Below are positions 4,005-34,162 of a stretch of DNA of 64,000 nt, one piece after another. Origin of the DNA: Leifsonia sp. ZF2019 (GTDB taxonomy: Bacteria > Actinomycetota > Actinomycetes > Actinomycetales > Microbacteriaceae). Under the pieces are notes generated by a model. It did no database searches. It was not told where the DNA came from and was given only the letters and a program-made list of their open reading frames with translations. Made by a program: the position numbers and the translations under genes. Position 1 is the first letter of the stretch; the number at the start of each line of letters is the position of its first letter. The DNA lies in contig NZ_CP065038.1 in assembly GCF_019924635.1 (NCBI RefSeq), positions 37,777-101,776 on the forward strand. The letters run 5' to 3'.

Positions 4005-4328
4005 ATGAGCGATATGCGTGCCGTCTCGCCACCGACGCTCAACGATGCTCTTGCCGCTGAGCTACGTATGGCTCGCGCACTCGCCGGGATTCCAATAAAG
4101 CAGCTTGCCTCAGAGTTATCCTTGGGGCGTTTTACCGTGCAGCGAATCTTCAAGGGTGAAAAGGAGATCACGGCTGGCGAATTGATCAAGCTGGCCGATG
4201 CCATGCGCGTAGACCTTGGAGAGTTGATCTCGAAAGCCCGCGACAGGGCACGCAACGAGGCCGAGAGAGCAGCCGAGGCCAAAGCCGCGCACGACGCGCA
4301 GTTGCTTAGGGAGATCCAGAACCTCTAA
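4005..4328 (+). CDS. XRE-family helix-turn-helix regulator
   Basis: A 107-aa protein. Residues about 15-65 form a Cro/CI-type helix-turn-helix (IKQLASELSLGRFTVQRIFKGE, then ITAGELIKLADAM). A charged, Ala-rich helical tail follows (about 70-107) that probably dimerises or contacts a partner. It lies 13 bp upstream of the membrane protein gene at 4342 and is almost certainly co-transcribed with it. A likely leaderless promoter precedes it. Twin palindromes at 5092-5134 beyond the second gene are candidate binding sites. In actinobacteria XRE genes are often paired with multi-pass membrane proteins in mobile elements. The trigger is unknown. Confidence 0.85.
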   Translation: MSDMRAVSPPTLNDALAAELRMARALAGIPIKQLASELSLGRFTVQRIFKGEKEITAGELIKLADAMRVDLGELISKARDRARNEAERAAEAKAAHDAQLLREIQNL

Positions 4329-4341
4329 GAGGAGAAACGCA

Positions 4342-5100
4342 TTGTCGTCCTGGAACCTGTTGATAGTTGTTGGGGCAGTGGCGTGCATCGCTGCCGCGGT
4401 GCGGTTGCTCCGAAGCACCGGCGCCCAGTCAGCGTTCGCGATCATGGGCCTTGCCAGCCTCGCGCTCTGCTTGACACTCAACGTCAAGCCAATCTATCTC
4501 GCGATTGATCCAGCGATTGGCGGCAACAACAGCCTCTACTTAGTTGTGCAATTGACCTTCGTTATCGCAATGTTCTTTCTCACATCTTCATTCGCTCCGA
4601 CGCGACACCCCATCACCCCGGGGTCATTGACGTCATGGTCCGGTGTGGCGTTGGCCACAGTGACTCTTGCGCTGGTGTGCATACTTTTCAGCCTCGCTGA
4701 GATGCCCACCACCGCTTACCGCGTCGAGCCCTATCGAGAAGAATGGCAGGTTCTCGCCTTTACGCAGCTGGTCAACGTCTATTCAGCGGGGTGCGCGATC
4801 TTGGTTATTCGTCGAGCCAATGCCCGAGTCCGCGTCTCCCCTCAGCCCATCATGCAAAGGCTGGGGTGTTCGCTCGTCGGGGTCGGCTTTGCCATTGGCC
4901 TCCTGACGGCAATCGAACGCCTGACTCTCGTCGGCTTGACTATGACGACACGGGCAACAGCCCTCGAGGGACTAGACGGGGCGTTAGTCGTTGCAACATG
5001 CCTGAGCCTGGTGGTGGGATTCGCGCTTCTATTTGAAAGCAATCGACAGCTTGCTCGCCGAGGCAGTCCGATCCCAAATGCCAGCTCCATGGCACTATAG
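4342..5100 (+). CDS. Seven-helix membrane protein, distantly like the MAB_1171c family
   Basis: A 252-aa protein starting at TTG 4342 with AAGAGGAGAAA upstream. Seven hydrophobic segments can be seen (about 5-20, 32-50, 66-85, 97-117, 137-152, 170-190 and 215-232) and no signal peptide. The segment VKPIYLAIDPAIGGNNSLY resembles the loop typical of the actinobacterial MAB_1171c-type proteins that sit beside XRE or ImmA/IrrE genes, though this one is shorter. No enzymatic residues are recognised. The stop codon TAG lies inside the first of two identical GCACTATAGTGC palindromes. Likely works with the XRE protein as sensor and regulator; the ligand is unknown. Confidence 0.6.
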   Translation: MSSWNLLIVVGAVACIAAAVRLLRSTGAQSAFAIMGLASLALCLTLNVKPIYLAIDPAIGGNNSLYLVVQLTFVIAMFFLTSSFAPTRHPITPGSLTSWSGVALATVTLALVCILFSLAEMPTTAYRVEPYREEWQVLAFTQLVNVYSAGCAILVIRRANARVRVSPQPIMQRLGCSLVGVGFAIGLLTAIERLTLVGLTMTTRATALEGLDGALVVATCLSLVVGFALLFESNRQLARRGSPIPNASSMAL

Positions 5101-5134
5101 TGCGCTTTCCGCACTATAGTGCATTGTATGCACT
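5092..5134. promoter_or_regulatory. Twin palindromic operators with a third overlapping repeat
   Basis: GCACTATAGTGC, a perfect 12-bp palindrome, occurs at 5092-5103 and again at 5111-5122, 19 bp apart (about two helical turns). A third inverted repeat, AGTGCAT-TGT-ATGCACT at 5118-5134, overlaps the second copy. The cluster spans the stop codon of the membrane-protein gene and the start codon of the next gene, so a bound repressor would directly block initiation. The nearby XRE protein is the obvious candidate. Confidence 0.75.
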
Positions 5135-5592
5135 TACAGGATCTGGGCTTCAAGGATGACAGCGCTACTGCGGCAGAATCCGAGATGCGGAATCCGGTTG
5201 AGCGTGAGCTGATGCGGGAGTTGGTGCGCAAAGGGACGATGCCTGCGTCCTTCCTGGTGGGCACTTCACGTACAGCTCTTGCAACCGCGGCTCACGAGAA
5301 CGACGCGCGCCGTCCCGGTGCTGCCATTGCTGCACAATCACGGGTTCCATGCACGCCTTCTTCGGTGGAGCGGCGGGTGATGCGACAGTTGGTGAGGAAG
5401 GCGACGTTGCCTGCGTCCCTTCTCGCGTTGACGCCGCGCGACGAGCTCGTGGGCGCTATGCGCCACGCGCCCTTGTATGCGGTGTCTGTTCGTGAGTCGT
5501 TGCGTGAGGCGTTGGCGTTGCTGGACGAGGTGGCCGCGCAGGCTGGCTTGGATGATCTGGTAGTGCCGGGGTCGGGGGTGGGTGGTGTTTGA
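5119..5592 (+). CDS. Hypothetical protein with an internal duplication
   Basis: A 157-aa protein, not recognised. It contains two copies of a motif of about 25 residues: VERELMRELVRKGTMPASFL near residue 28 and VERRVMRQLVRKATLPASLL near residue 84. It looks like a duplicated helical unit. GTG 5119 or ATG 5128 could be the start; both lie inside the palindrome cluster and no ribosome site is seen, suggesting leaderless or coupled translation. The end overlaps the next gene by 11 bp, so the two are probably translated together. Confidence 0.65.
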   Translation: MHCMHLQDLGFKDDSATAAESEMRNPVERELMRELVRKGTMPASFLVGTSRTALATAAHENDARRPGAAIAAQSRVPCTPSSVERRVMRQLVRKATLPASLLALTPRDELVGAMRHAPLYAVSVRESLREALALLDEVAAQAGLDDLVVPGSGVGGV

Positions 5593-6532
5593 GCTTTCGC
5601 GTGGTGAAGCGGCGGCGGCTCTGGTAGAGGCTGTCAACATCCTCGCGGGCGGTTCGGACGTGCTGATGGATCGTGGGTGCAGTGCGCGGTACGTGGCGAT
5701 GATCCGTCAGTATCTTGCGGGACCGATCGTGGCGGTCGCTCGTGGCCGGCTTGGAGCATCTGATTTTGATGAGAACCGGGCCGTGAGCATGGTGGTGACG
5801 CGCCTCCAGCTCGAGGCAGAGAGAGATGTTGTTCGTCGCCGTGATAGCCGCCCCTTGGTGTTGCCGCAGATTGTGGCGGCGCAGAGCCCGATCGGGTTTG
5901 TGGTTCGGTGCGCGACAAAACCTCCAACGCCAAAGCAGGGCAGAGGATGGGTGTATGACGAGGTCGCCCAAGACCGCTCACCGACAGCTGAAGTCTCTCT
6001 CGACGAGTTGCGAGAGGCGGGCATTCAACCGGAGGCACCTGCGGCATCGGCAAGCTTAGACCAGGGGTGGGAGGCGTTGGCCGTGCACACGTTCGAGTTG
6101 CTCCGGCCGGAAACACCGCCCGCGCTATGGGAGGCAGTAGGGGAGGCGGTGTGTTGGTTTGTGTCGGCACTCCCAATGGTTGGAGTGTCGCATGAGCTGG
6201 ACAAGGAGTGCGGGGAGACGAACCGTGTCCGGCTGGCGGAAGAGTTATTCCCTGCTTTGACCCGGACGCAGTTGGACGCCCTGTTCAAGGTGTTGTGGGG
6301 TGGGCGGCCGCACCCGGAACGGTCAAGTTTGCTGGCGCATGTGGCGTTACTGCGGAACGCTCATCAATACGGTGAGCACGACCGCAGGACGGTGCTCGGC
6401 GCTCGAGTACGCGACCAGCCACACGCGTGCGGGGCATGCCACTATACCCCGCTTTCCGGGGACCGGTTGCGGGCCCTGGTCGACACGTACGCCTCTCGAA
6501 TAGCGTCCTCCGAGCCTGCTGAGGCCGCCTGA
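5582..6532 (+). CDS. Hypothetical 316-aa protein
   Basis: Not recognised. The start GTG at 5582 overlaps the upstream gene by 11 bp. The protein is mixed alpha/beta in character with no membrane segment. A CGACHYTPLSGD segment near the C-terminus and an invariant-looking ELFPALTRTQLDALFKVLWGGRP helix region are the most distinctive parts. It ends just before a very strong terminator at 6555, so the cassette from 4005 to 6532 looks like a single transcriptional unit with a possible internal operator. The coupling suggests it acts with the duplicated 157-aa protein. Confidence 0.65.
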   Translation: MVFELSRGEAAAALVEAVNILAGGSDVLMDRGCSARYVAMIRQYLAGPIVAVARGRLGASDFDENRAVSMVVTRLQLEAERDVVRRRDSRPLVLPQIVAAQSPIGFVVRCATKPPTPKQGRGWVYDEVAQDRSPTAEVSLDELREAGIQPEAPAASASLDQGWEALAVHTFELLRPETPPALWEAVGEAVCWFVSALPMVGVSHELDKECGETNRVRLAEELFPALTRTQLDALFKVLWGGRPHPERSSLLAHVALLRNAHQYGEHDRRTVLGARVRDQPHACGACHYTPLSGDRLRALVDTYASRIASSEPAEAA

Positions 6533-14097: not shown

Positions 14098-14610
14098 ATG
14101 GCACTAGAGATGAAGGTCCCGAAAGAGATCACCGCCTACGAGGCCAAACCGATGTTCGGGCTCTCTTGGCGACGGCTCGGCTCGCTGGTGTTCATGGTCG
14201 TCGTCGGTGGTGGCGTGTTCGCCGCCATCGCGTTCGCGATCGCGACCCCGCAGGACGGAACGAAGGCCGCCTGGGAGCAGGCCACCAACGTGGCCATGTT
14301 CGCCATGTTCGCGATCGATGTCCCCGCGGCGTGGTGGGGATGGTTTCGGCCGATGGGTTTGAAACCCGAGATCCACGCACAGTACTTCCTCCGATTCCAC
14401 TTCCTCAGAAGGGTTATCCCGTATGTCGACACCTACCTCCACCGAAACCGCAAACCCGTACACCAGCCTGCCGAACAGCCAGTCCGCAGGAGCCGAGCAG
14501 ACGCCCGGGCGCAGGCGCGGGCTCGGCGCACCCTTTCCGAGCACCAAGAAGAAGCCCGCCCTGCCAGCTCCCGGAGAGCGGCGCGGCCGCGCCGGACGAA
14601 CCGGCACTGA
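14098..14610 (+). CDS. PrgI-family (VirB3-like) protein
   Basis: A 170-aa protein. The N-terminus KVPKEITAYEAKPMFGLSWRRL matches the PrgI/VirB3-like signature, followed by two transmembrane helices (about 30-50 and 60-80). PrgI proteins are small partners of the VirB4 ATPase. The last 60 residues are basic, low-complexity and overlap the N-terminus of VirB4 in another frame by 188 bp, an unusually long overlap; the family core would end near residue 110. Confidence 0.8.
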   Translation: MALEMKVPKEITAYEAKPMFGLSWRRLGSLVFMVVVGGGVFAAIAFAIATPQDGTKAAWEQATNVAMFAMFAIDVPAAWWGWFRPMGLKPEIHAQYFLRFHFLRRVIPYVDTYLHRNRKPVHQPAEQPVRRSRADARAQARARRTLSEHQEEARPASSRRAARPRRTNRH

Positions 14611-16951
14611 CACCTCCGCGGCGCCGGGCGTGTTCAAGTCGGTGCCGAAGAGCACGCGGGACGTCCTCGGCTACAAGACCATGTTGCCCAACGGTGTCGC
14701 CTGGCTCGGCGCGGACGAATGGTCGATGACGATGCGGGTCTCCGACATCAATTACGTTGCCGCGGCCGAAGAACACCAGGAGTCGATCGTGGACCGGTGG
14801 GCACGGTTCCTGAACAGTTTCGGCGCTGGCACCCGCGTGCAGGAGACCGTCACCAACCGGGTCCTCGCGGATGCGGATGTGGCCGACCTGGTGCAGAAGC
14901 AGCTGCGCGGAGACGAAGGCGATAAGTACCGTTCGGACTTCAATCGCATCGTGCGGGACAAGCTGGCCTCGGCCAGCGGCAACACGGTGACCGAGAAGTA
15001 CGTGACTGTCACCGTGCAGGAGCCGGACGAGGAGAAGGCCAACGCCACCCTGACCCGCATCGCCCACGAGATCGAAGCGTCCCTGCAGAGCATGGACGAC
15101 TGCAAGGCGGAGCGGCTGACCCGGACCGAACGGCTGGCGGCCCTCGCGCACGTGCTGCGCCCGCACGAGCTGTTCGGGTTCACCGAGGACGACTTCGCCG
15201 GCAAACACCGGCAGGCGACCGCGGACTATGTGGCGCCGTGGGGGATCGAAGTGCTCGATAAGGCCGGCCCGCTGCAGTTCCACAACGGCACCGCCGACAC
15301 GTTCCACCAGGTGCTGTGGGTGCGGGACTACCCGGTGTGGCTGTCCGACCGGCTGATCACCGAGCTGACCGAGATCAAATGCGACCTGACGGTGTCGCTG
15401 CACTTGGAACCGTACGACCAGATCGAAGGGATGACCCTGATCGAACGGCAGATCGCCGAGATGGAGATGCAGACGATCACCGAACGGAAGAAGGCGAAGA
15501 AGCAGGGCATTGGGGAGGACATGATCCCCAGAAAGCTCGTCGACGCCCTCGACGAGGGGCGCGAGCTGCGGCAGGAACTGTCGACGTCGAACCAGAAAGT
15601 GTTCAGCACGGTGATGGTAATCGGCATCTCCGCCGGCAGCCGGGCGGCCCTGGAGCAGAACGTCAAGCGGGCGATGACCGTCATCCGCAAACAGTCGGTG
15701 AAGGCGGAAGTCCTGAAGTGGATGCAGGTCGACGGGTTGACCACCGAGCTGCCGATCGGCCGGCGGGCGATCCCGATGCGGCGCACCCTCACCACGGCGT
15801 CCGCGGCGATCATCGTCCCCTTCACCACACAGGAGCTCTTCGTGCCTGGCGGCATCTGGTACGGAGTGAACGCCCAGTCCTCCAACGCCCTGGTCGCCGA
15901 CCGGACCGCCACCCCCAACGGCAACGGATTCTTCTTCGGCACCTCGGGGTCCGGGAAGTCGCAGTTCGGCAAGAACGAGATCGCTCAGATCGTCCTTGAC
16001 CGACCGGATGACGATGTCATCATCATCGACCCGGAACGTGAATACGAGCCAAGCGTTGCCGCATTCCAGGGCAGCACGGCCCGTATTCATGCCGGCAGCC
16101 TCGACAGGGTCAACCCGATGGATATCGACCTGGACGCGGCCACCGACGACGGGGACCCCATCTTGGCCAAGTCGAACTTTGTTCTCGCTGCTCTCGACCA
16201 CCTGATCGGTGGCCAGACAGGGCTGAACGCCCAACAGCGCAGCCTCGCGGATCGTGTCACCGTGGCGTTGTACCGACGTTATGCGGCCGAGCGTGGCCCC
16301 ATGCCGACCTTTCTCGATCTGCGCGACGGCCTCATCGCCACGGGCGATCCGGTGGGCGCCCAGATGGGAGCGGCGTTGGAGCTCTACACGGTCGGCTCGC
16401 TGAACACCTTCTCCCACCAGACGAACGTCGACACCAATGCTCGCCTGTTCTCGTGGGACATCAACCAGCTCGGTAGCGAGCTGAAGTCGTTCGGCATGAT
16501 GGTCGTCCTCGACCAGGTCTGGCAGCGCATCGTCCGAAACCGGGCGATCGGCCGTCGCACCTGGGTGTACATCGACGAGTTCCACCTGCTGCTGGTCGAC
16601 CGCTTCCTGTCCGAGTTCTTCCGCACCCTCTGGGCCCGGGTACGGAAGTACGGGGCGATCGCCACCGGCATCACGCAGAACATCGAAGCGGTACTCGCCC
16701 ACGAGGACGCCCGTCTCATGCTGGCGAACTCGGACTTCCTGGCTCTGTTGGGTCAAAACCCGACCGATGCGGACGCGCTGGTCGAGCTGCTGCACTTCAG
16801 CAGCGAACAGCGGCGCCGATTCACCAACGTGCTCCCCGGGCAGGGGCTGCTCCGCTCCGGTGGCCGGGTCATCCCATTCGACGGCCGGATCCCGGAAGAC
16901 TCCCTTCTGTATTCGTTGTTCTCGACCAAGTTCGGTGAGACGAACGAATGA
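14423..16951 (+). CDS. virB4: VirB4-like conjugation ATPase
   Basis: An 842-aa ATPase energising assembly of and transfer through the mating channel. Walker A GTSGSGKS lies near residue 506, a Walker B-type segment RRTWVYIDEFHLLL near 715, and an arginine-rich C-terminal motor domain follows; residues 70-480 are the VirB4 N-domain. ATG 14423 has AGAAGG upstream; the first 60 residues are Pro/Gly-rich and overlap the prgI gene out of frame. A later start is possible but none is clearly better. The stop overlaps the next start by 4 bp (ATGA). Confidence 0.92.
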   Translation: MSTPTSTETANPYTSLPNSQSAGAEQTPGRRRGLGAPFPSTKKKPALPAPGERRGRAGRTGTDTSAAPGVFKSVPKSTRDVLGYKTMLPNGVAWLGADEWSMTMRVSDINYVAAAEEHQESIVDRWARFLNSFGAGTRVQETVTNRVLADADVADLVQKQLRGDEGDKYRSDFNRIVRDKLASASGNTVTEKYVTVTVQEPDEEKANATLTRIAHEIEASLQSMDDCKAERLTRTERLAALAHVLRPHELFGFTEDDFAGKHRQATADYVAPWGIEVLDKAGPLQFHNGTADTFHQVLWVRDYPVWLSDRLITELTEIKCDLTVSLHLEPYDQIEGMTLIERQIAEMEMQTITERKKAKKQGIGEDMIPRKLVDALDEGRELRQELSTSNQKVFSTVMVIGISAGSRAALEQNVKRAMTVIRKQSVKAEVLKWMQVDGLTTELPIGRRAIPMRRTLTTASAAIIVPFTTQELFVPGGIWYGVNAQSSNALVADRTATPNGNGFFFGTSGSGKSQFGKNEIAQIVLDRPDDDVIIIDPEREYEPSVAAFQGSTARIHAGSLDRVNPMDIDLDAATDDGDPILAKSNFVLAALDHLIGGQTGLNAQQRSLADRVTVALYRRYAAERGPMPTFLDLRDGLIATGDPVGAQMGAALELYTVGSLNTFSHQTNVDTNARLFSWDINQLGSELKSFGMMVVLDQVWQRIVRNRAIGRRTWVYIDEFHLLLVDRFLSEFFRTLWARVRKYGAIATGITQNIEAVLAHEDARLMLANSDFLALLGQNPTDADALVELLHFSSEQRRRFTNVLPGQGLLRSGGRVIPFDGRIPEDSLLYSLFSTKFGETNE

Positions 16952-23277: not shown

Positions 23278-24972
23278 ATGAAGGGATACACCCCGGGCCG
23301 GATCATCGCCGCCGCCGTGGGGGCGCTGATCGCGTTCTACGTCGTCGACCGGATCGTCGGCTACGTGACCGGCGCCCTCAGCTCACAGGCCGCCGGAAAG
23401 GATGTGCTGGCGCAGCTGGCAGCCAACCCGCTGCTCCCGTTCGGAAACCCGCTGCAACTGGACACAAGTTTGCCGGCGTTGCTATCTGGTGCGACCGCGG
23501 CCGCCGCTGTCGTCCTCGCGGTCATCTACCGGGTCAGTGGCAGGCAGACCACCCGCCCCGGTGAAGAGCAAGGCTCAGCCGAGTGGGGGACACGTCTGCC
23601 GCGCCGGTTCCGTGGCACCGGCGCGGGGCAGCAACTCCGGTTCACCCAGACCGAGGCGATGTCCACCGACACCCATCAAACCAAACGCAACCTCAACGTC
23701 CTCGTGCTGGGCGCGTCCGGATCTCGGAAGACCCGCTCCTATGTGATGCCGAACCTGCGCACCCTGGAAGCCTCCACCGCGACCACCGACCCCAAGGGCG
23801 AGATCATCCGGGAGATCCGCCCTACCCTGGAAGCCCGCGGCATCGCCGTCCGGACGTTGAACCTGATCGACCTGGGCGCCAGCGGCAAGTTCAACCCGCT
23901 GCGCTACGTCAGCCCCGACGAACCAGAGACCGGGCTCGCGCAGCTCACCGAAACGATCATCGCGAACACGACGGGGGAGAAGGAGGGCGGTGGTGACGGG
24001 TTCTGGGAACGCGCCGAGCGCGCCCTGCTGACCGCTCTCACCGCCTACGTGTGGGCCACAACCGCGCAAACCGACACCACCGAACCGAACCTGCCCGGTG
24101 TCCTCGACCTGCAGAAGGGGATGCAAGGCAGCGAGGAGAACAAGGACGCGATGACCAGCGAAACCGATCTCCGGTTCCAGGCCGCCCGAGAGATCGTCAC
24201 TGAATGGCACAGCAACCCGAACCCGGACGATGACCCGGCCGTGATTAAGGTGCTCGACTTCGCCTGCCGGCAGTACCGCATCTACGAACAGGGCCCCGCC
24301 GAAACCCGGATGAGCGTCGTCATCTCCCTCGGTGTGCGGCTGGCGCCGCTGGACATGCACGACGTCCGAAACATCCTCACCACCGACGACCTCGCCATCG
24401 ACAAGATCGGGTACGAGCGCACCGCGCTGTTCCTGCAGATCCCGGACACCCACCGCACATTCAAGTTCATCTCTGCCATGTTCTGGCAGACCCTCTTCAG
24501 CCTCACCGTCTACCAAGCCGACCACGAAGAAACCGGGCACCTGCCCGAGCTGCTGCACATGTTCCTCGACGAGTTCGCGAACATCGGCAAGATCCCCGCC
24601 TTCGAACAAGTCATGGCCACGATCCGCTCTCGCGGGATCAGCGCCAGCATCATCATGCAGTCCCGATCCCAAGGCAAGACCCTCTTCGGTGACGCGTGGG
24701 CGGGCGTGGAGAACAACTGCGACACCAAACTCTTCCTCGGAGGCGACGAGGAAGAAACGACCAAGTGGGTGTCCGGGCTGCTCGGCTACCAGACGATCGT
24801 CACCCCGGAGATCTCCGAAAGCCGCGGCTCGCACGGCTCCTGGTCCAAGTCGATGCGGGTCACCAAACGTGAGCTGATGATGCCCGACGAAATCGGCCGC
24901 CTCCCCGATGATGAAGCGATCTTGAAGATCCGCGGCATGAGCCCGTTCCGGTCGAAGAAGCTCGCCATCTGA
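23278..24972 (+). CDS. VirD4/TraG-type coupling ATPase
   Basis: A 564-aa type IV coupling protein. Two N-terminal transmembrane helices (about 8-30 and 62-82) are followed by the motor domain with a Walker A variant GASGSRKT near residue 143 and DPKGEI downstream. Walker B-like HMFLDEFANIGKIP comes next, then the conserved SIIMQSRSQ and DTKLFLGG motifs. It recruits the relaxase-DNA complex to the channel. ATG 23278 has GGGAGG upstream, 4 bp after the DUF3801 gene. It ends only 39 bp before the tRNA array. Confidence 0.92.
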   Translation: MKGYTPGRIIAAAVGALIAFYVVDRIVGYVTGALSSQAAGKDVLAQLAANPLLPFGNPLQLDTSLPALLSGATAAAAVVLAVIYRVSGRQTTRPGEEQGSAEWGTRLPRRFRGTGAGQQLRFTQTEAMSTDTHQTKRNLNVLVLGASGSRKTRSYVMPNLRTLEASTATTDPKGEIIREIRPTLEARGIAVRTLNLIDLGASGKFNPLRYVSPDEPETGLAQLTETIIANTTGEKEGGGDGFWERAERALLTALTAYVWATTAQTDTTEPNLPGVLDLQKGMQGSEENKDAMTSETDLRFQAAREIVTEWHSNPNPDDDPAVIKVLDFACRQYRIYEQGPAETRMSVVISLGVRLAPLDMHDVRNILTTDDLAIDKIGYERTALFLQIPDTHRTFKFISAMFWQTLFSLTVYQADHEETGHLPELLHMFLDEFANIGKIPAFEQVMATIRSRGISASIIMQSRSQGKTLFGDAWAGVENNCDTKLFLGGDEEETTKWVSGLLGYQTIVTPEISESRGSHGSWSKSMRVTKRELMMPDEIGRLPDDEAILKIRGMSPFRSKKLAI

Positions 24973-25817: not shown

Positions 25818-26262
25818 GATTACGTCGCCGCTCTCCTGCGCGCCGGCGTCGACGCCGACAACCTTTATGCCGACATCGCCAGCGGCTCCCGCGCCACCCG
25901 TCCGGAACTGGACAGAGCCCTCGCCTCAGCGAACCGCGTTGGCGACCAACTCGTGATCACACGGCTGGATCGGCTCGGCAGATCGGTCCTGCATCTCGTT
26001 ACTCTTGGCGCCACCCTGCAGCAACGAGGTGTGGGGTTACGGGTGCTCGAGCAGGGTATCGACGCCGGCAGACCTGAAGGGCGTGCCATGTTCGGCATGC
26101 TCTCCGTCCTGGCTGAGTTTCAACGTGAACTCATCATCGCCAACACCCGCGACGGCCTCGCCGCCGCTCGCGCACGCGGCCGCACCGGCGGCCGGCGACC
26201 GCGACTCACGCCCGCCCAAGCATCTCTCGCCCAACAGCTCTACGACGGTCACTGGGACCGCC
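25818..26262 (+). pseudogene. tnpR: Serine resolvase remnant, fused out of frame
   Basis: From about 25818 the sequence encodes most of a serine recombinase: ASGSRATRPELDRAL, DQLVITRLDRLGRS, GRAMFGMLSVLAEFQRELI and a C-terminal GGRRPRLTP hinge. The N-terminal strand with the catalytic serine (usually YxRVS) is deleted, replaced by the transposase remnant. Similarity fades near 26262, before the HTH would be complete. It is a relic of the same transposon, joined by one internal deletion. Confidence 0.85.
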
Positions 26263-26322
26263 GAGGGGCCGGGCGGCCGCGGAAGGCGGCTCGGCCCTCG
26301 GCGGTGTGCTGGTCGCTGGCGC

Positions 26323-26955
26323 CTACCGGTCTTCTGTCGCAGGAACGGTCTGAGCGTGGGCGGGGAGGGCCTCAAGGTGAGGTGTGGCGAGTATCTCGTT
26401 GATGGCCGTATTGGTGCCACCGATGTAGGCGCTGCGGGCGTAGATGTCTGCCCCAACAGCCCAGGCGCGGTCGCGGGGGCGCCAGTTCGTGGGCCGACGG
26501 CCGTAGCGAGCATCGGCGCCCGCAGTGACTGGGCCGGTGAAGAGTGCCAGGCTGTCTCGATGACCCGACTGGATCAAGGGAGCGTTGCTAAGGGTGCGGG
26601 TTTCCGCGTATCCGGTCCAGAGCAGGAACGCGCATTCGTCAGGCGTGGTGGTGTAGCCGACAAGGATTCGCGCGAGCTCTGCGGCGACGTGCGGGTGAAG
26701 GTCGCCCATGACCGGTTCGTCCAAATACGGGTCGGCGTGAAGATCGGCCCACTGAGTATCTGCGGTGATGGCTGCCGCGGCCGTGCTGACCTTGGCCCAG
26801 CTGCGCGTGCTCATCCCGGGGGGCGCGATCGGATCAACGGCGGGGTTGAAGACACGAACGTAGGCGTCATACGTGCCGACGAGCTCGCTGACGTTTCCCT
26901 CGAAGGACACGCTAGCGAAGGCCTCGTGGGCCCAGGATGGTTCAGCGGTCGGCAT
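26323..26955 (-). CDS. Hypothetical 210-aa protein
   Basis: Soluble, mixed composition, with no signal peptide and no recognised family. TWSW-free but Trp-containing segments (SWAHEAFASV, NWRPRDRAWAVGADIYARSAY) suggest a folded domain. ATG 26955 lies 10 bp after the lipoprotein gene, so it is probably the last gene of the leftward set 28100-26323. Its 3' end meets the Tn3 remnant. Confidence 0.65.
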   Translation of the reverse strand: MPTAEPSWAHEAFASVSFEGNVSELVGTYDAYVRVFNPAVDPIAPPGMSTRSWAKVSTAAAAITADTQWADLHADPYLDEPVMGDLHPHVAAELARILVGYTTTPDECAFLLWTGYAETRTLSNAPLIQSGHRDSLALFTGPVTAGADARYGRRPTNWRPRDRAWAVGADIYARSAYIGGTNTAINEILATPHLEALPAHAQTVPATEDR

Positions 26956-26964
26956 TTGGTACCT

Positions 26965-27555
26965 TCATCGGTCTGGGATGAGTCGCACACCCCAGGAGGC
27001 GGAGTCCAGGGCGAGTCCGGGGTCTGAGGGGCTGTCGCCCCAGTATCCGACGTGCACGACGATGATCTTGGTACCTGCCGGCAGGGAAGGGTGTAACGAC
27101 AGTGTGGTCGTGGTTCGGCTGATGTGGCAGGGGTCTTGGGGTTCCGTGCAATCGATTTGATGTTCGTCGGCGCTGTTGGGGATCCCGTTGGCGTCGAGTG
27201 ACGTGAATGCTGCGATCACGAGCTGCGAGGGGCGGACCGGGCTTCCCAGAGTGATTGTCGGGTTGGTGGCGGTTGAGGGGATGTGTTGAAGTTTGACGTC
27301 ATCCTGGTTGGGAGCGGCCAGAAACTTCTTGGGCTTTCCGTTGATGATCCAGTCGTAGCTGGCTGGTGAGATCTCGTGGCCTGAGACGGTGAGGGTGGGT
27401 ACGGCCGTAGGTGGCGGTTCCATTTTGGTTAGGGGCTTGTCTGTTTGGGACGACGGGGACGGGGATGCGGTGCACCCGCAGAAGGTGGTGGCAGCGACGA
27501 TCGCTGCCGCCACCCCGAAGCCCGTCCTGGCGTGGCGAGCCTGCGTGATCTGCAT
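26965..27555 (-). CDS. Probable lipoprotein
   Basis: A 196-aa protein from ATG 27555. A short basic start and a hydrophobic segment end in TTFCGC, a passable lipobox with the Cys near residue 28; a Ser/Pro-rich spacer follows. The mature part has two Cys in DCTEPQDPC that may form a disulphide and a strand-rich C-terminal half (IIVVHVGYWG). Function unknown; exported, likely surface-attached, and in an operon with a secreted protein. Confidence 0.7.
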   Translation of the reverse strand: MQITQARHARTGFGVAAAIVAATTFCGCTASPSPSSQTDKPLTKMEPPPTAVPTLTVSGHEISPASYDWIINGKPKKFLAAPNQDDVKLQHIPSTATNPTITLGSPVRPSQLVIAAFTSLDANGIPNSADEHQIDCTEPQDPCHISRTTTTLSLHPSLPAGTKIIVVHVGYWGDSPSDPGLALDSASWGVRLIPDR

Positions 27556-27557
27556 CG

Positions 27558-28100
27558 TTAGCAGCTGAACCGGTTCTCGGACCCGCTGGTCTCGGCGTTG
27601 TACGTCCCGGACGCTTCCCGCGAGTAATGGGTGGAGATGCCGCGGTAGTTCTGGCTTCCCCAGCCGCCGCAACTCCAATGTGGGTGTGCGTCCTGGGAAT
27701 TGTTGGAGTTCGCGCGACTCGAGCTATCCGTGTTCATGGTCTCCCAATAGAGCCATCCCTGCTTCTGAAGAGATGTCGTGACTCCGAGAGCCGAGACGAT
27801 ACCGCGACTGCAGGTGGTTCGGCCATGCACCGATGCTTCCCGGTTGCTCCAGTGCGCGTTGTCGGTCTTGCCGGCACAGCCCGCGGGGCTGAACGCAGCT
27901 TTGGAGCCGCCCGACACGGTTAGTGGCAGGTCCGGCATCGCAGGCACGCCGGTCTCGGTCGCCGTTGGCACCGGGGCGACGGGCAGTGGCCCCGGGTCCG
28001 CGGGTGCGGGTTCGGCCGCCAGCGCGGGAGTGCCCACCGCGATAACTATGGCGAGACCGATCGAGGAAGAGAGGCTAACAATCTTTGCAAAACGGTTCAT
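27558..28100 (-). CDS. Secreted Cys-containing protein
   Basis: A 180-aa protein from ATG 28100, with AAAGGA upstream. The N-terminal signal peptide (hydrophobic about 8-26) ends at ALA-AEP. A Pro-rich spacer is followed by a domain with four Cys (GCAGK, TTCSRG, WSCGGWG and the C-terminal FSC), suggesting two disulphides. The segment GWLYWETMNTDSSSRANSN lies in the middle. It resembles small secreted proteins of actinobacterial plasmids but no family is certain. The next gene begins 2 bp later. Confidence 0.75.
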   Translation of the reverse strand: MNRFAKIVSLSSSIGLAIVIAVGTPALAAEPAPADPGPLPVAPVPTATETGVPAMPDLPLTVSGGSKAAFSPAGCAGKTDNAHWSNREASVHGRTTCSRGIVSALGVTTSLQKQGWLYWETMNTDSSSRANSNNSQDAHPHWSCGGWGSQNYRGISTHYSREASGTYNAETSGSENRFSC

Positions 28101-28275
28101 CGTTGAGTCCTTTCGCGGACGGCGCCTCGGCCGCCCTGATGGGGCTCTACGTTTCCGGTCAGCGCACCAAGAGAACTTGCGGTGGCCGAGGGGATGCGCA
28201 AAATTCACCCTAGGTTGGGTTGCGATGGCTGCCGTAGCACTTCACTCCGTGACCGAGCTCTGCCCGCGCGGCCTC

Positions 28276-29889
28276 CTAGCGGCCTCGGCCGCGGTCGCGA
28301 TTGCCGGAATCGTTCTGCTGCTGGCGACGCTTGAGCTCCGCCAGCTGGACGTCCAAACGCTCCTGCAGAGTCATGGGCTTCTTGGTCGGCTCAGAGGAAC
28401 CATCGCGCTCCGTAGGACCGCGATCTGGTGCAGGCGATGCCGGCCCCGGCTCCTCGACGGATTGCAGTTCGGCTCGCGTGGCAGGCTCCTCGATGTGCGT
28501 CGCCGCAGCAGGGTCCGCGGACAGTTGAGTGAGGGCTCGAAGGTCCGTGCCGACTGTGTTGATGTCGCGTTCGATGATCCGAAGCTGTGCCTGTACGGCG
28601 CGTAGGTCGGTCGGGTCACTCGTCGGGTCGGCTACGAGCTCTGCGGCCGCGACCAGCGTGGTCTGGTAGGCGAGCTGCTGCTCCTGAAGGTGCTCTCTCG
28701 CCTTCTCGACGGCCGCGATGGCGTCGAACATGTAGGGGTTTATCCAGCGTGCCTTCGCGTTCACCCGGTCCTGGAGCTCGCGCAGTTCGCTCATCGCGGC
28801 GCCCCAGCCGGCGAACATCGACCCGTCGACCTGCTTCCGCTTCGCGCCGGTGAGAGCCGCCTGCAGGTCCGGCTCGGAGAAGTATTGATACAGGCCCTGC
28901 GTGCTGACCGTGCGTGCGATGTTGCCCGCCTTATCCGCTAGGCGATGCTGCTCCGCGGCAGGGACGTAGATCCGCAGCGCACGGCCGTGGCGCACGACTT
29001 GTCGTTTCGCGACGGTCATCTGCAGCTCGCGTTTGGTGCCGGGGACGGTGACCGTGAGGGTGTCGCGGGATTCCTTGACGATCATGGACGCGTCGACACC
29101 GACCATGTTGACCACGCTCTTGGACATGCGGGTCATGATCGACTGCTCCGTGTAGGCGGCACCGAGGCGGAAGTCGCGCACGGGTCTGCCCATCGAGATC
29201 TCCCGGAACGAGAGGGTCCCGTTGCGGCCTCCGCGCACGCTTGTCTCGATGCCGGCACGGCCCAAGATGCCCTCGAACTCGCGCCAGCTCGTCGCTCTTG
29301 CGGCCGCCTTGTCGATCTCGCAGCGCAGGAGTTCCTTGGCGCTCTCGCCCTTCAAAGCCCGGTACAGCTCAGCGAACGAACGGCCGGTCGCCGGGGTCTT
29401 CAGCGGCGGGAGAACGCTCAGGCCTTCGGCTTTGCAGAGGTCATCGGAGAGGTCGCGGATCTTTCCGATCGTGTACTTGTCTGTGTGGAACTTGCGTCCG
29501 GTCTCAGAGTTCACCGCGTTGAAGATGATGTGGTTATGAACATGGCCCTTGTCCAGATGGGTCGCGATCATGTATTCGTGTTCACCGCCGGTGATCTGCT
29601 CCGCCAGCTGCACACCCAGGCGATGCGCGAGCTCCGTGGTCATCTCCTCACCCGGCGCGAACGACTGAATGACATGGTGAGCCAGCACCGAACCCTGCCG
29701 CGGCGCGGTGATACCTACCCGCTCGACCGTTGCGGCGAACCGATTGGCGACGGCTTTGAAGTTCGACGGGTCAATCACGGCGGCGTTCGTCGACACCCAC
29801 AAGCCGTCATTGGTCGCGTCAGGACGCGAGATGTACGCCAGCGCCTTCACAACCGTGGACTTGATCTGCCCCATCTTCACGACAGCCAT
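28276..29889 (-). CDS. MOBP-type relaxase
   Basis: A 537-aa relaxase that nicks oriT and pilots the strand. The candidate catalytic Tyr is Y19 in KALAYISRP. H71-H72 lies in the second motif and the metal-binding motif H111LDKGHVHNH120 is intact, followed by IIFNAV. The C-terminal half is charged and helical, likely a coiled coil that contacts partners. ATG 29889 overlaps the stop of the upstream paralogue (TGATG), so the two are translationally coupled. The order MobC, relaxase-like protein, relaxase runs away from the candidate oriT. Confidence 0.92.
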   Translation of the reverse strand: MAVVKMGQIKSTVVKALAYISRPDATNDGLWVSTNAAVIDPSNFKAVANRFAATVERVGITAPRQGSVLAHHVIQSFAPGEEMTTELAHRLGVQLAEQITGGEHEYMIATHLDKGHVHNHIIFNAVNSETGRKFHTDKYTIGKIRDLSDDLCKAEGLSVLPPLKTPATGRSFAELYRALKGESAKELLRCEIDKAAARATSWREFEGILGRAGIETSVRGGRNGTLSFREISMGRPVRDFRLGAAYTEQSIMTRMSKSVVNMVGVDASMIVKESRDTLTVTVPGTKRELQMTVAKRQVVRHGRALRIYVPAAEQHRLADKAGNIARTVSTQGLYQYFSEPDLQAALTGAKRKQVDGSMFAGWGAAMSELRELQDRVNAKARWINPYMFDAIAAVEKAREHLQEQQLAYQTTLVAAAELVADPTSDPTDLRAVQAQLRIIERDINTVGTDLRALTQLSADPAAATHIEEPATRAELQSVEEPGPASPAPDRGPTERDGSSEPTKKPMTLQERLDVQLAELKRRQQQNDSGNRDRGRGR

Positions 29890-30410
29890 CAGAGCGCCAC
29901 CCCCGATGAGGAACCGTCTGCCCGCCGGGAAAGTACGGGCAGACCTTCCGCCTCGTACAGCTCATCCGAGACCGTCCGAATCAGGCCGATGGTGCCACGG
30001 CCGACGCGAAATCGACGCCCAGATTCAAAACTTACCGGGTTGAAAATGATGTGGTTACAGACCGGGGAAGCTGCCACGTGCGTCGCCACCACGTACTCGT
30101 GCTCCCCACCTGTAACCCGCTCGGCCAACTGCACACCGACCCGGTGAACAACCTCCAACGGAACAGGCACGGCCGGATCAAAAGACTGGATGAGGTGATG
30201 TGCCGCCACGGAATTAGTTCGTGGCCGCGTGACCCCGACGCTCTGCACAGTCTCTCCGAACTGTTGAACAATCGCAGCGATGTTTGACGGATCGATCACC
30301 GCGGCATTCACCGAAATCCACAGCCCGCCGCCAGTGAGCTGCGGGTCACTCGCACGCTCCAACGCTTTGGCCAGGCCCCTCTTGATCTGCCACATCTTGA
30401 TCACCGGCAT
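29889..30410 (-). CDS. Relaxase-like paralogue lacking catalytic residues
   Basis: A 173-aa protein that aligns without gaps to the first ~165 residues of the neighbouring relaxase. Shared stretches include NAAVIDPSN, HH-x-IQSF, GVQLAE and GGEHEY. The catalytic Tyr position is Arg (R19) and the metal motif HLDKGHVHNH has become HVAASPVCNH, losing two of the four His. It is coupled at both ends (TGATG overlaps). Precise loss of the chemistry with the fold kept suggests a DNA-binding or regulatory partner rather than decay. Confidence 0.88.
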   Translation of the reverse strand: MPVIKMWQIKRGLAKALERASDPQLTGGGLWISVNAAVIDPSNIAAIVQQFGETVQSVGVTRPRTNSVAAHHLIQSFDPAVPVPLEVVHRVGVQLAERVTGGEHEYVVATHVAASPVCNHIIFNPVSFESGRRFRVGRGTIGLIRTVSDELYEAEGLPVLSRRADGSSSGVAL

Positions 30411-30763
30411 CAGGTCTGCCCCTCAACAACGGAACCCGCAGCGGACTCGATCAGCCCTTGGATCTGATCCAGCAACTTCTTCACGGCCCGCATCTCCTGG
30501 AACGTGACCTGATCCTCAGCATTCACATGCCGAGCGATCTGATTCACGTTGTTCCCGATCCTGGAAAGCTCCACCTTCAACAACTCCGGATCGAACGCGA
30601 TCCGCTGAACAACGATCTCGTTGTCCAACACCGCGCGGCGAGCGAACTCCTCAAACGACCGAGTGTTCGTCAAACCCATCCGCCGATCAACCGCGATCCA
30701 CTCCACCTCCGAGAACGACAACGCCTTGCGCACCGGCCGCGACCGATTCGGCTTGCCGTCCAC
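30410..30763 (-). CDS. mobC: MobC-like mobilisation protein
   Basis: A 117-aa protein from GTG 30763, with GGAGG at 4-nt spacing. The N-terminal ribbon-helix-helix-like region (RKALSFSEVEWIAVDRRM) is followed by the MobC signature GNNVNQIARHVN and a C-terminal helix. MobC proteins bind near oriT and help the relaxase melt the nick site. The gene starts just downstream of a hairpin-rich non-coding region, the likely oriT, and overlaps the relaxase-like gene by TGATG. Confidence 0.88.
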   Translation of the reverse strand: MDGKPNRSRPVRKALSFSEVEWIAVDRRMGLTNTRSFEEFARRAVLDNEIVVQRIAFDPELLKVELSRIGNNVNQIARHVNAEDQVTFQEMRAVKKLLDQIQGLIESAAGSVVEGQT

Positions 30764-30779
30764 GAAACCTCCTACCGGG

Positions 30780-31007
30780 ATTGGGCTGGAAGCCCATATA
30801 GCACTACAGACGGCGTAAGCCTGGATGCGGAGTCTGGCTACCAGACTCAATGCTTGCTACCCTCCGTGAGTCGATCTTAGACCACAATTCCCAACCGCTA
30901 GGGTTGGGAAGAGCACCGGCTCCGCCGGTGCAGCCTTTGACAGGAGAGAGTGAGCCCTCGGTACCGAGTTCGGCTCACCAGATACCGCGACGGGGGACCG
31001 GTCGCGG
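30780..31007. other. Candidate origin of transfer (oriT) with stacked hairpins
   Basis: Between divergent mobC and the gene at 31022 lie four inverted repeats. They are GAGTCTGG/CCAGACTC (30830-30848), TTCCCAACC/GGTTGGGAA (30888-30910), GCACCGGC/GCCGGTGC (30913-30931) and CCGCGAC/GTCGCGG (30985-31007). Stacked inverted repeats beside a MobC gene are the normal shape of an oriT. The nick site is not identifiable by eye. Confidence 0.65.
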
Positions 31008-31021
31008 GGGATGAGGGGACG

Positions 31022-31342
31022 ATGAGCACCGATCACGTCATCGACGAACTGCTGCGCCAGGACGAGGCCGAACTCCGCGCCAAGCGGAAGCGACTGAAGG
31101 CGTTCGCGACTGCGCTCGAGGACGCCCGCCGCGCGAACGACGCAGTCCACCAGGCGGCCGCCGAACTGATGGACGCCGGCGACATGAGCCGAGCTGATCT
31201 CGTTCGAGTGTTCGAGCTCACGGCGACGGAGCGGGGGCTCCTCGCGACCCGCAAGGGCACGCCGACTGCCGGTGCGGAGACCGTCGTCGACGAGCGTGAG
31301 GCGACACAGCCCGACACCGAAAGCGTGTATGCGGCTGCGTAG
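31022..31342 (+). CDS. Small helical hypothetical protein
   Basis: A 106-aa soluble, highly charged helical protein (DEAELRAKRKRLKAFATALEDARRAND...). GAGGGGAC precedes ATG 31022. The helix LMDAGDMSRADLVRVFELT resembles a helix-turn-helix of small plasmid proteins, and its position next to the candidate oriT suggests a relaxosome accessory or regulator role. No family recognised. Confidence 0.65.
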   Translation: MSTDHVIDELLRQDEAELRAKRKRLKAFATALEDARRANDAVHQAAAELMDAGDMSRADLVRVFELTATERGLLATRKGTPTAGAETVVDEREATQPDTESVYAAA

Positions 31343-31383
31343 CGATCACGCAGCTTCCCTCGTCGCCCTATAGGGGCGTGCTG

Positions 31384-31584
31384 TCAGGTACGAACGCCGA
31401 AGTAGAACGCGCGCATCCCGCGCGCGATCGCCACCACGCACCAGAACACCACTCGGACGAGTCCGAACGTGATCCACACCGCCACACGCAGAACGAGCCC
31501 GAATGCGCCCAGCCCCAGGCGAAGCACGAGGCCGACGACGGCGATCACGATCGCGACCAGGACCGGGATCACGACGGCGAACAT
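31384..31584 (-). CDS. Small membrane protein (66 aa)
   Basis: ATG 31584 has GGGAGGAGG upstream. The protein is almost wholly hydrophobic (two helices, about 3-25 and 28-55) and ends GMRAFYFGVRT. Not recognised; convergent with the gene at 31022. Confidence 0.6.
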   Translation of the reverse strand: MFAVVIPVLVAIVIAVVGLVLRLGLGAFGLVLRVAVWITFGLVRVVFWCVVAIARGMRAFYFGVRT

Positions 31585-31639
31585 GCACACGCCTCCTCCC
31601 GGCCCACGACCTGTCGGATCAGAGTGATGTGCTGGCCCG

Positions 31640-32431
31640 TCATCGTGCCGGTCCGGTCCGCGGCGGACGCCGCTCCTCAGCTCCACCGCCGACGGCCTCT
31701 TCGCCCTCGATCCTGTGATCGATTCGTGCCGCCACATCGCGACGGGAACGCTCGCGATGCTCATCCGTCGACGCGCCCATCGACAGCCGGCCCAGCTCCT
31801 GCGCCGGCCATCCGGGATGCGTGGTGCGCCCCACGGGGATAGGTTCTGCGATGCTTTCGAACATCACCCGCAACGGGCCGAAGTCGCGCTCCTCGGCCGC
31901 GGCACGGCAGGCCGCGTCGTTCGTTCGTCCCTGCACGGTTTGCCAGTCCAGCTGCCAACCAGCGTCGCGGGCGACACGGTTCCAGAACACCCGCTGCGTG
32001 CGGCCGTTGCCCTCACGGAACGGATGGATGTAGTTGACGCTGTCGTAGTGATACGCCAGCCGCTCGATGAACTGCGCACGCTCCATTTGGCGGAGCAGAC
32101 CATCCGCGCGCAACTCGCCCACGGCGAAGTCGGCGGCGCGCTCGATCATCGACACCGGCAGGAACGGTTCACCGTCCGGCTTACGAATATCCACCGTGCG
32201 CAGTTGGCCGGCCCACGCATACACGTCGCCGAACAAACGGCGATGGATCTCGCGGAGCTCGGTCAGGTCATTCGACGCCGCCTGCGGCTTATCCATCAGC
32301 TGCATCGCACGGGCAACGGTCAGCGCACCCTCGGCGGCGTTCAACGCTTCTCGCGTGGTCGCACCGACGAGGTTTCGGAGAATGCCGGTCTGCGGGTCGA
32401 GGTAGGGATCTACGAAATCAGCGGAGTCCAT
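31640..32431 (-). CDS. fic: Fic/DOC-domain AMP-transferase toxin
   Basis: A 263-aa protein with the complete Fic motif H136PFREGNGRTQR147, where His is catalytic and the acidic residue binds metal. Fic enzymes transfer AMP or another group to host proteins. The fold-typical LREIHRRLFGDVYAWAGQLR precedes it, and a basic tail (RRDVAARIDHRIEG...RPPRTGPAR) follows. Its start overlaps the antitoxin gene by 14 bp. An antitoxin with an inhibitory helix in front makes it a class I Fic system like VbhT/VbhA, here beside a relaxase locus. Confidence 0.92.
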   Translation of the reverse strand: MDSADFVDPYLDPQTGILRNLVGATTREALNAAEGALTVARAMQLMDKPQAASNDLTELREIHRRLFGDVYAWAGQLRTVDIRKPDGEPFLPVSMIERAADFAVGELRADGLLRQMERAQFIERLAYHYDSVNYIHPFREGNGRTQRVFWNRVARDAGWQLDWQTVQGRTNDAACRAAAEERDFGPLRVMFESIAEPIPVGRTTHPGWPAQELGRLSMGASTDEHRERSRRDVAARIDHRIEGEEAVGGGAEERRPPRTGPAR

Positions 32432-32660
32432 ACCGGGCCCGCGCGCGCTCGACGAGCTCGTCCGAGTCGATCCGCCCCGCGATGTAGTCCTCCGTATCGG
32501 CACGAGTGTAGACGTCGACGCTGACACCCTCCATCTCGCCGGAGTGAATCGCCTCCTCAACGAGACGACGCCGCTCGACTTCCCCCGACACAGTCAGTCG
32601 TGAAAATGCCATCCGAACGCTCCCCTCCACTCCGAACTGCAACGACGAATCCATCGCCAT
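32418..32660 (-). CDS. VbhA-like Fic antitoxin
   Basis: An 80-aa protein (start ATG 32660; ATG 32654 has better spacing to GGAGAGG). The helix VEEAIHSGEMEG contains S40-x3-E44-G45, which fits the (S/T)xxxE(G/N) motif that blocks the Fic ATP site in class I antitoxins. The C-terminal part (VYTRADTEDYIAGRIDSDELVERARARYG) resembles antitoxin domains fused to such helices. The end overlaps the toxin start by 14 bp. Confidence 0.88.
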   Translation of the reverse strand: MAMDSSLQFGVEGSVRMAFSRLTVSGEVERRRLVEEAIHSGEMEGVSVDVYTRADTEDYIAGRIDSDELVERARARYGLR

Positions 32661-32717
32661 CTCTCCTCTCCATTCTACCAAACAGGCCCTCAGAGACCAT
32701 CGAAACCGAGGCTGCCG

Positions 32718-32748
32718 CCGGCTACAGATCAGTTGGATCTGTAGCCGG
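32718..32748 (-). terminator. Hairpin terminator
   Basis: CCGGCTACAGATC (32718-32730) pairs perfectly over 13 bp with 32736-32748 around AGTTG. It lies just past the stop of the leftward DUF3560 gene. Confidence 0.7.
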
Positions 32749-32757
32749 GTCGGGCGG

Positions 32758-33711
32758 TTAGACCGCGTGGGTGCTCTTGTGGGCCGTGACTTCGCCATAG
32801 GTGTACCGGATCGGGAAGGGCATGTGCCGGGATTGCACGTCGAGGGTCTTGGCGTTGGTCTTGGTCACGGCCTCCCAGTCGCGGCCCTTGATGCGGACGA
32901 GGTCGCCGACCTTGATGGTGTTGCGGCTGGCGTCGGTGGTGAGGCCGTCCGCGATCTGCTGGGCGCGGACCGCGGTCCAGTAGGCATGCTGGTTTTCGGC
33001 TTCGGCGCGCATCCTGGTGAGCCGGTCGCGGTAGTCGCCGGTGGCGGCGGGGATGGTCTCGCGGTAGGGGCTGCGGGGGTGGCGGGTGTGCCCGTCGAGC
33101 TTGCGCGTGTAGTCGCGAATGTCGGCGGCGAGCTTGTCGATGCGGTTCGCGACAGTCACGGGGGCGTTGCGGCGGTCGGTGGCGTCGGCCGCGATCCGCG
33201 CACGGCGGGCGGCTTCGGTGGCGGCCTTGTCGGCCTGCACGCTCGCACCGAGCGCCCGCCATGCCTTGTCGATCGCGTTCCGGTGGCGGCGCTCGGAGTG
33301 GTGGCCGACCTTGATGGGTTCGCCGCCTTCGGGCAGCGCCGCCACGGCGCGCTCGTGCATGGCATCCACCCGGGTGGCGGCGTCGGCCTTCCGGTCGGCC
33401 TTGGCGTCGAGGGCGTCGGCGCGGTCGGTTGCCCGGGCGGCCTTGTCGGCCTCGACGTCGGCGGCGGTGCGGAAGCTGTGATCGATGTCGAGCTCCACGT
33501 TGTGTCCGGCGGTGCGGAGCGCGGCCGCGACGCCCTCGATCCGGTAGGTGTCGGGGAGCCGGTCGCGGGTGTGGGGCTTGTACCAGGCGGTGATGCTGCG
33601 GCCCCACCGGTAGCCGTGCTGCTTGAGGGTGGTGCCGGTACCGTCGTCGCGGGACGTGCCGTGGACGATGGTGCCTTCGGCGTGGGTGTGGGTGATGGTC
33701 AACTCGGCCAT
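32758..33711 (-). CDS. DUF3560-domain protein
   Basis: A 317-aa protein. The N-terminus (THTHAEGTIVHGTSRDDGTGTTLKQHGYRWGRS...AWYKPHTRD) matches the DUF3560 signature common on actinobacterial plasmids. A helical, Ala/Arg-rich middle (coiled-coil-like) and a C-terminal SH3-like segment (IKVGDLVRIKGRDWEAV) follow. The function is unknown; the pattern and plasmid context suggest nucleic-acid handling. ATG 33711 chosen; upstream frame is low-complexity. Confidence 0.85.
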   Translation of the reverse strand: MAELTITHTHAEGTIVHGTSRDDGTGTTLKQHGYRWGRSITAWYKPHTRDRLPDTYRIEGVAAALRTAGHNVELDIDHSFRTAADVEADKAARATDRADALDAKADRKADAATRVDAMHERAVAALPEGGEPIKVGHHSERRHRNAIDKAWRALGASVQADKAATEAARRARIAADATDRRNAPVTVANRIDKLAADIRDYTRKLDGHTRHPRSPYRETIPAATGDYRDRLTRMRAEAENQHAYWTAVRAQQIADGLTTDASRNTIKVGDLVRIKGRDWEAVTKTNAKTLDVQSRHMPFPIRYTYGEVTAHKSTHAV

Positions 33712-33799
33712 GTGATGTGTCCTTCCGGATAGGGTGAGAAGCCGGTCCGGAACCGAGGCAGTACGAATGCTTCGGTCCCGGACCTTTCGCGTGTACGGG

Positions 33800-34162
33800 T
33801 CAGCGGGTGCGGCGCGGGCCGGGCACGCTCTGCACCTGGTGCAGTTCGACGGCAGCGAGCAGGCACGGGGCGAGGAAGAACACGATCGCGGCGATCGCGG
33901 CCGCGTACGCGGCGGTTGCCGCTGCGTCGTTCTTGGTGATCGCGAACGCGATGAACAGGCCGAGGGTGGCCGTTGCGAGGATCCCGAACACGCCCCCCAG
34001 CACCCGGTAAGCGCGGTGGTAGCGGGCGCCGACCTGTGCGGTGTGCGCCTGGTGTGCGGTGAGGCGGACACGGTAGTTCTCGGCGGCGATGATCGCGGCG
34101 AACTCCGCGTGGGTGTCACGGACTGCGGCCGCGGGGTGAGCGGCGATGGTGGTCTGGGTCAT
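33800..34162 (-). CDS. Two-helix membrane protein (120 aa)
   Basis: A soluble helical N-terminus (about 1-50) precedes two transmembrane helices (about 55-75 and 80-105) and a short basic tail. ATG 34162 has GAAGGA upstream. Not recognised; in the accessory set 34534-32758 transcribed leftward. Confidence 0.65.
   Translation of the reverse strand: MTQTTIAAHPAAAVRDTHAEFAAIIAAENYRVRLTAHQAHTAQVGARYHRAYRVLGGVFGILATATLGLFIAFAITKNDAAATAAYAAAIAAIVFFLAPCLLAAVELHQVQSVPGPRRTR

Follow-up and report, generated by a model that had tools for sequence, protein, structure and literature searches.

Organization of the mobilization region

The window analyzed here is a 64-kb stretch of DNA from Leifsonia sp. 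ZF2019, namely, the last 64 kb of the 101,776-base contig C2 of a genome made up of two contigs, and coordinates refer to this window unless a contig is named. On its minus strand, a region resembling an origin of transfer (oriT) is followed by mobC, which encodes a relaxosome accessory protein, then by a gene for a short relaxase-like protein of 173 amino acids (aa), and finally by the gene of a 537-aa relaxase (Table 1). The original prediction had described an inactive relaxase paralogue set between MobC and an intact relaxase and joined to both neighbors by TGATG overlaps, and this arrangement was found as described. At each junction, a single base is shared, first by the mobC stop and the start of the short gene, and then by the stop of the short gene and the relaxase start. 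The short gene is probably translated in step with mobC and the relaxase gene.

Table 1. Features of the mobilization region and of the transfer genes in the window
Feature	Coordinates	Strand	Evidence or remark
Short relaxase-like gene, relaxase domain predicted to be catalytically dead (pseudo-relaxase), 173 aa	29889..30410	-	BLASTP, Pfam PF03432, alignment, AlphaFold
mobC, relaxosome accessory protein, GTG start	30410..30763	-	PF05713, 40.1 bits (cut-off 23.2)
Intact relaxase, 537 aa, HLDKGHVHNH and Tyr19 present	28276..29889	-	PF03432, 109.3 bits
Probable oriT core	30827..30913	-	84/87 bases identical to L. xyli triad locus; position, hairpins
Perfect inverted repeat GAGTCTGG/CCAGACTC, probable relaxase-recognition hairpin	30830..30848		Beside conserved GGGTAGC(A/C)AGCAT
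Second perfect inverted repeat TTCCCAACC/GGTTGGGAA	30888..30910		Identical in L. xyli triad locus
VirD4-like coupling protein	23284..24963	+	Outer limits of two matches, not gene ends
VirB4-like ATPase	14519..16939	+	70% identical to MST3P counterpart
Small open reading frame (ORF) divergent from mobC across oriT	31022..31342	+	Relative at same place in Microbacterium MST3P, 55% identical

BLASTP aligned the short protein with residues 1 to 160 of the neighboring relaxase, with 90 of 160 residues identical (56%) and an E value of 7e-61, by which chance similarity is rejected. The alignment is gapless, as had been claimed, while its extent falls slightly short of the roughly 165 residues first given. 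The homology ends at about the end of the Pfam nuclease domain (residue 157), and the short protein lacks the C-terminal part that the relaxase carries beyond it. PF03432 identified this protein as a relaxase nuclease domain (65.9 bits, cut-off 24.6) and was its only Pfam match, no MobC or ribbon-helix-helix domain being found in it. The gene is open from ATG to stop, without the broken frame of a pseudogene, and shares 60% nucleotide identity with the neighboring relaxase gene.

Loss of the active site and predicted fold

To place the substitutions of the short protein, we used a reference alignment of 124 relaxases, of which 119 came from a protein search and five were read from loci; near-duplicates occur among them, so that they are not independent. 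Tyr19, presumably the catalytic tyrosine, and His111, Asp113, His116, His118, and His120, whose motif presumably supplies the HUH metal ligands, both by analogy with RP4 TraI and VirD2, were each present in all 124 sequences. The short protein of the window has Arg19, Ala113, Ala114, Pro116, and Cys118, and the predicted replacements of Tyr19 by Arg and of HLDKGHVHNH by HVAASPVCNH were both recovered. Judged by these residues, the short copy is a relaxase domain without a working active site. It keeps 49 of the 67 columns that are at least 95% conserved in relaxases, as well as basic residues at 9 of 11 conserved positions.

AlphaFold2, given an input alignment of 67 sequences that were mostly relaxases, returned a complete relaxase fold for the short protein (mean predicted local distance difference test [pLDDT] of 89.9, predicted template modeling score of 0.85), with residues 163 to 173 below a pLDDT of 50. 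The best solved structural matches of this model were relaxase domains, MobA 2ns6 and MobM, and a search by sequence returned no solved structure. Because nearly all rows of the input alignment are relaxases, the model is not an independent test, and the short sequence appears compatible with a relaxase fold.

A second triad in Leifsonia xyli subsp. xyli

A search for mobC/short gene/relaxase triads, proposed along with the original prediction, uncovered a second one in the same genus: among the 28 Leifsonia genomes searched, one locus, in a Leifsonia xyli subsp. xyli genome, carries mobC, a short relaxase-like frame, and a relaxase gene. The short protein of the window had looked like a singleton, the first protein search having returned its own protein alone, and this possibility was rejected when the genus search found the L. 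xyli locus. The L. xyli relaxase (524 aa) is intact and matches a protein named from L. xyli subsp. xyli with full identity over 519 residues. The short frame, similar in length to that of the window, reads HVDAYPVVNH in place of HLDKGHVHNH and has His at position 19. Thus, neither short protein has the catalytic tyrosine or the full set of metal-binding histidines: His111 and His120 are retained, Pro116 stands in both, and His118 is replaced by Cys in the window and by Val in L. xyli. The two short proteins share 52% of their residues, and the two mobC genes are 64% identical.

This chromosomal element resembles the window in having mobC, a short frame that is catalytically dead by its sequence, an intact relaxase, and an oriT core of the same sequence at 84 of 87 bases, but differs in that its short gene is broken near the start and other transfer genes are broken as well. 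The short frame starts at the mobC overlap and breaks after about 13 codons; thereafter, 156 codons are open from a TTG, and the frame ends three bases before the relaxase start. The open part corresponds to P0002, an entry with three member sequences in a protein collection (151 of 152 residues identical, the start residue differing), whose predicted start also lies after the break; this would be compatible with a real break, but is not proof of one. The element is decaying, with matches to a type IV secretion system protein in three pieces and three frames, and no match in it for residues 1 to 214 of the VirD4 query. One long ORF at 3603 to 5723 of this locus (L016) has a VirD4 match midway with a different protein before it, and resembles the product of a fusion by deletion as a conjugative element decays.

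Divergence and selection

The phylogeny was computed on 22 rows, eight of which came from loci of the order search (ten of its loci were taken, and L021, an empty slice, and L024, the same stretch as L023, were dropped). The two short proteins were sisters with support of 99/97, or a weaker 74/84 without the active-site segments, and in the tree without these segments, forcing the window's short protein together with its neighbor relaxase was 15.6 log-likelihood units worse (P = 0.04, approximately unbiased test). The two intact triad relaxases formed a clade of their own with a chromosomal remnant described below (98/95). Since the short proteins group together and apart from both neighbor relaxases, the duplication appears to predate the divergence of the two relaxases, and a recent tandem duplication of the neighbor relaxase is disfavored by the tree and by the low nucleotide identity given above. 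Furthermore, Thr65, Val88, Ala114, and Pro116 are common to both short proteins and absent from all 124 relaxases, suggesting that active-site changes were already present in the ancestor shared by the two short proteins.

The differences between the short proteins are unevenly spread. Columns conserved in at least 95% of relaxases are equal in the two short proteins in 42 of 57 cases, compared with 14 of 42 variable columns (below 70%; Fisher P = 8.6e-5), and this speaks for constraint because a gene free of it since the split would be expected to diverge to the same degree in every class. Should the ancestor still have been active when the two lines split, some of this constraint would stem from that period. 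In a branch model of seven sequences on a tree fixed by the author, the ratio of nonsynonymous to synonymous rates (omega) was 0.10 for the two short tips, and omega of 1 was rejected for both jointly (2dlnL of 68) and for the window's tip (2dlnL of 11.0); these values are rough because synonymous changes are saturated and the stem branch of the short proteins lies at its bound.

Search scope and relatives without the short gene

Genome searches covered 28 genomes of the genus, 398 of the family, and 396 of the order at an E value of 1e-3, and four further genera (366, 60, 11, and 57 genomes) and 296 genomes of the class at 1e-15. These sets overlap; those of the family, order, and class are samples in which the L. 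xyli genome gave no row, and the scoring of first-look candidates was incomplete for many genomes. Across these searches, two adjacent relaxase-domain matches were found in the window's and the L. xyli genomes and in no other. Likewise, tblastn with four relaxase-domain queries matched 50 of the 61 loci searched (64 loci less L018, L019, and L059), with two adjacent places only in the loci of these two genomes. One scan of a collection of genome contigs gave five distant loci, the L. xyli locus not being among them. A profile search returned eight proteins, namely, the window's, P0002, and P0003 to P0008 with an intact histidine motif, and hence no third dead copy; no relaxase relatives were found in viral contigs. 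A further relaxase, P0009, is 80% identical. Five plasmid records with two places, among the 60 listed (of 60 + 1035), were rejected as further triads, as their annotation puts no additional relaxase between mobC and the relaxase gene.

The closest known arrangements are those of MOBP relaxases with an upstream mobC, e.g., MST3P of Microbacterium sp. TPU 3598, pTZC1 of Cutibacterium (one of four records opened), and pARLON1 of Gulosibacter. As in the window, mobC precedes the relaxase gene and sequence blocks similar to the window's lie upstream of mobC; the TGATG overlap of mobC and relaxase gene occurs in MST3P and pTZC1, while the two genes are 4 bases apart in pARLON1. Unlike in the window, nothing stands between the two genes. 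PLSDB types MST3P and pTZC1 as MOBP and pARLON1 as non-mobilizable. With G1120 and the chromosomal remnant, five relatives have mobC directly before the relaxase gene. The short protein had been called a conserved subunit; its two occurrences go some way toward this, but in view of these five relatives, the word is too strong.

The remnant is located on the chromosome of the genome from which the window comes (C1:657046-657739; about 7040 to 7880 of L017) and consists of a mobC end close to that of the window and a relaxase start, with no short gene. The relaxase start matches that of the window at 96% identity over 70 residues, and an internal deletion has brought residues 1 to about 70 next to the C-terminal part. 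As the remnant falls within the clade formed by the two triad relaxases, the short gene was either lost from it or gained and removed through exchange; recombination between the two gene starts, which are similar, could conceivably have removed it cleanly. A second relaxase piece lies on the same plasmid as the window (C2:3129-3413; C-terminal residues 385 to 482, 62% identical). In Enterococcus mundtii pPe10302 (L062), a block of two hypothetical genes and mobC is tandemly duplicated, and the relaxase gene that follows the first mobC copy has a length of only 951 bases.

The oriT-like region

The core upstream of mobC is probably an oriT, judging from its position, hairpins, and conservation, and its first inverted repeat probably forms the hairpin recognized by the relaxase. 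Positions 30820 to 30935 fold well as single-stranded DNA (z of -5.7). GGGTAGC(A/C)AGCAT is common to six aligned loci and adjoins a short inverted repeat of varying sequence, confirmed in four of these loci. The core is far better kept between the two triad loci than the adjoining genes are. Specificity of the second inverted repeat for the dead relaxase was considered, and this idea was dropped since in pARLON1, which has no short gene, a repeat of another sequence is seen by eye at the same place of the alignment. The 23-base repeat had no match in viral contigs, and no Rfam family was found at 26000 to 34000.

Proposed role of the short protein

Taken together, these data lead us to view the short gene as a retained pseudo-relaxase most likely working in the relaxosome at the nearby oriT, a view to which we give an even chance; that it encodes a selected protein instead of debris is probable. 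The relaxosome is its most likely site because of the place in the operon, the predicted fold, the kept basic residues, and the neighboring oriT-like region. A MOBP-type nuclease domain devoid of active site and C-terminal part would be produced after MobC and before the active relaxase, and could occupy an oriT hairpin or single strand without cutting; alternatively, it could pair with the active relaxase. Either action would set how often nicking starts. Hairpin occupancy, relaxase pairing, and interference with other plasmids are all compatible with the sequence, and the roles first suggested for the short protein (DNA binding, decoy action, dosage control, and heterodimers with the relaxase) are conjectural. 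The narrower proposal, in which the product of an ancient relaxase duplication gates nicking in the manner of a prozyme, either as a heterodimer with the MOBP relaxase or by sharing its oriT, is possible but doubtful.

Several observations weigh against a retained, working protein. The five relatives do without it, and the L. xyli frame is broken; of the two outcomes that had been named as signs of simple decay, a short protein found only here is contradicted by the L. xyli copy, but degenerate homologues were indeed seen in this one broken frame. The dN/dS analysis that had been proposed spoke for purifying selection on the window's copy, but omega of 1 was not rejected for the L. xyli tip alone (2dlnL of 1.7), the stem branch of the short proteins ran to the upper bound, and the pairwise omega of 0.09 is rough at a dS of 4.5, where synonymous sites are saturated. 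Columns of intermediate conservation, which were outside the Fisher test, were equal in 1 of 7 (90 to 95%) and 15 of 33 cases (70 to 90%). The open frame is weak evidence, as 117 of 2000 simulations of neutral evolution, run with substitutions only at 0.33 per site, left it open. GC content at third codon positions is 0.69 and 0.64 in the short genes versus 0.76 to 0.82 in their neighbors, as under weaker selection. The net charge of residues 18 to 157 is -4 compared with a relaxase mean of -1.6, i.e., not more basic, and the modeled fold may in part be that of the relaxases themselves.

Decay of an old duplicated or captured relaxase, which lost its C-terminal part and catalytic residues and whose frame is open by chance or through residual polarity constraint (a stop inside the short gene could hurt translation of the downstream relaxase), would account for the L. 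xyli frame break, the relatives lacking the gene, the lower GC content, and the further relaxase remnants in the same genome. It also has a parallel in streptococcal integrative and mobilizable elements with two relaxases, for which PMC5357655 reports three pseudogenes among 154 relaxase genes. We nevertheless hold decay to be rather unlikely: the differences between the short proteins avoid relaxase-conserved columns, which polarity alone would not achieve, omega of 1 is rejected for the window's tip, the shared changes at positions 114 and 116 suggest inactivity before the short proteins split, and in the L. xyli element, further genes besides the short one are broken. It is quite improbable that the frame and not the protein matters, with the insertion lowering relaxase translation via coupling and so limiting nicking. 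Such a translational spacer fits the TGATG on both sides of the short gene and the end of the L. xyli frame so near the relaxase start, but leaves the amino acid constraint at relaxase-conserved columns and the predicted complete fold unexplained, and the L. xyli frame entered from the mobC overlap soon stops. An equally slim chance goes to interference, whereby the dead relaxase would bind oriT or join the relaxosome of related plasmids in trans and block the transfer of competitors. The gene does adjoin an oriT-like region with conserved hairpins, and the mobC-relaxase remnant in the same chromosome indicates that related elements have met this host; however, a gene in the plasmid's own transfer operon would block its own carrier unless specificity differs.

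No description of an inactive relaxase paralogue was found among the articles listed in the literature searched, which lay mostly outside subscription journals. In our view, the field has yet to settle what restrains a relaxase until mating is signaled and in what way a single oriT is shared by two relaxase molecules. If the pseudo-relaxase reading is true, a natural dead relaxase domain in the same operon, recognizable by sequence, would offer a genetic handle on both, and pseudoenzyme control, known for some eukaryotic enzymes, would also operate in plasmid transfer. In the streptococcal 89K/SAG1250-type relaxosome, as in the window, the relaxase adjoins a MobC accessory protein; MobA and MobC are both needed for nicking, and an N-terminal relaxase fragment nicks with MobC (PMC3132442). 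Unlike in the window, no inactive relaxase copy is described in the accessible part of that paper, and the NCBIfam model SAG1250 scored 78.4 bits against the window's relaxase, far below its cut-off of 575. Trypanosomatid prozymes are likewise catalytically dead paralogues found beside an active enzyme, but the enzymes are unrelated and activation by heteromer formation has been shown (PMC5201418, PMC3663545), whereas pairing in the window is a proposal from sequence. For TraI of the F plasmid, two relaxase molecules must bind one oriT, as stated in a review (PMC12857230); both are the same protein, whereas the second molecule in the window would be the product of a separate dead gene.

Plasmid context

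Contig C2 carries relatives of VirB4, PrgI, topoisomerase, DUF3801, and VirD4, and the plasmid to which the relaxase belongs therefore has its own transfer genes. The AAA_10 family had no match in the window's and the L. xyli genomes although VirB4 relatives are present, and is thus a poor probe. Annotated ORFs similar in size and orientation to the small ORF divergent from mobC are present in pARLON1 and pTZC1. A Fic-domain protein is encoded at 31640 to 32560, near the mob region, and close to the mob regions of MST3P and pARLON1, a Fic protein is likewise encoded, there together with a VbhA-type antitoxin.
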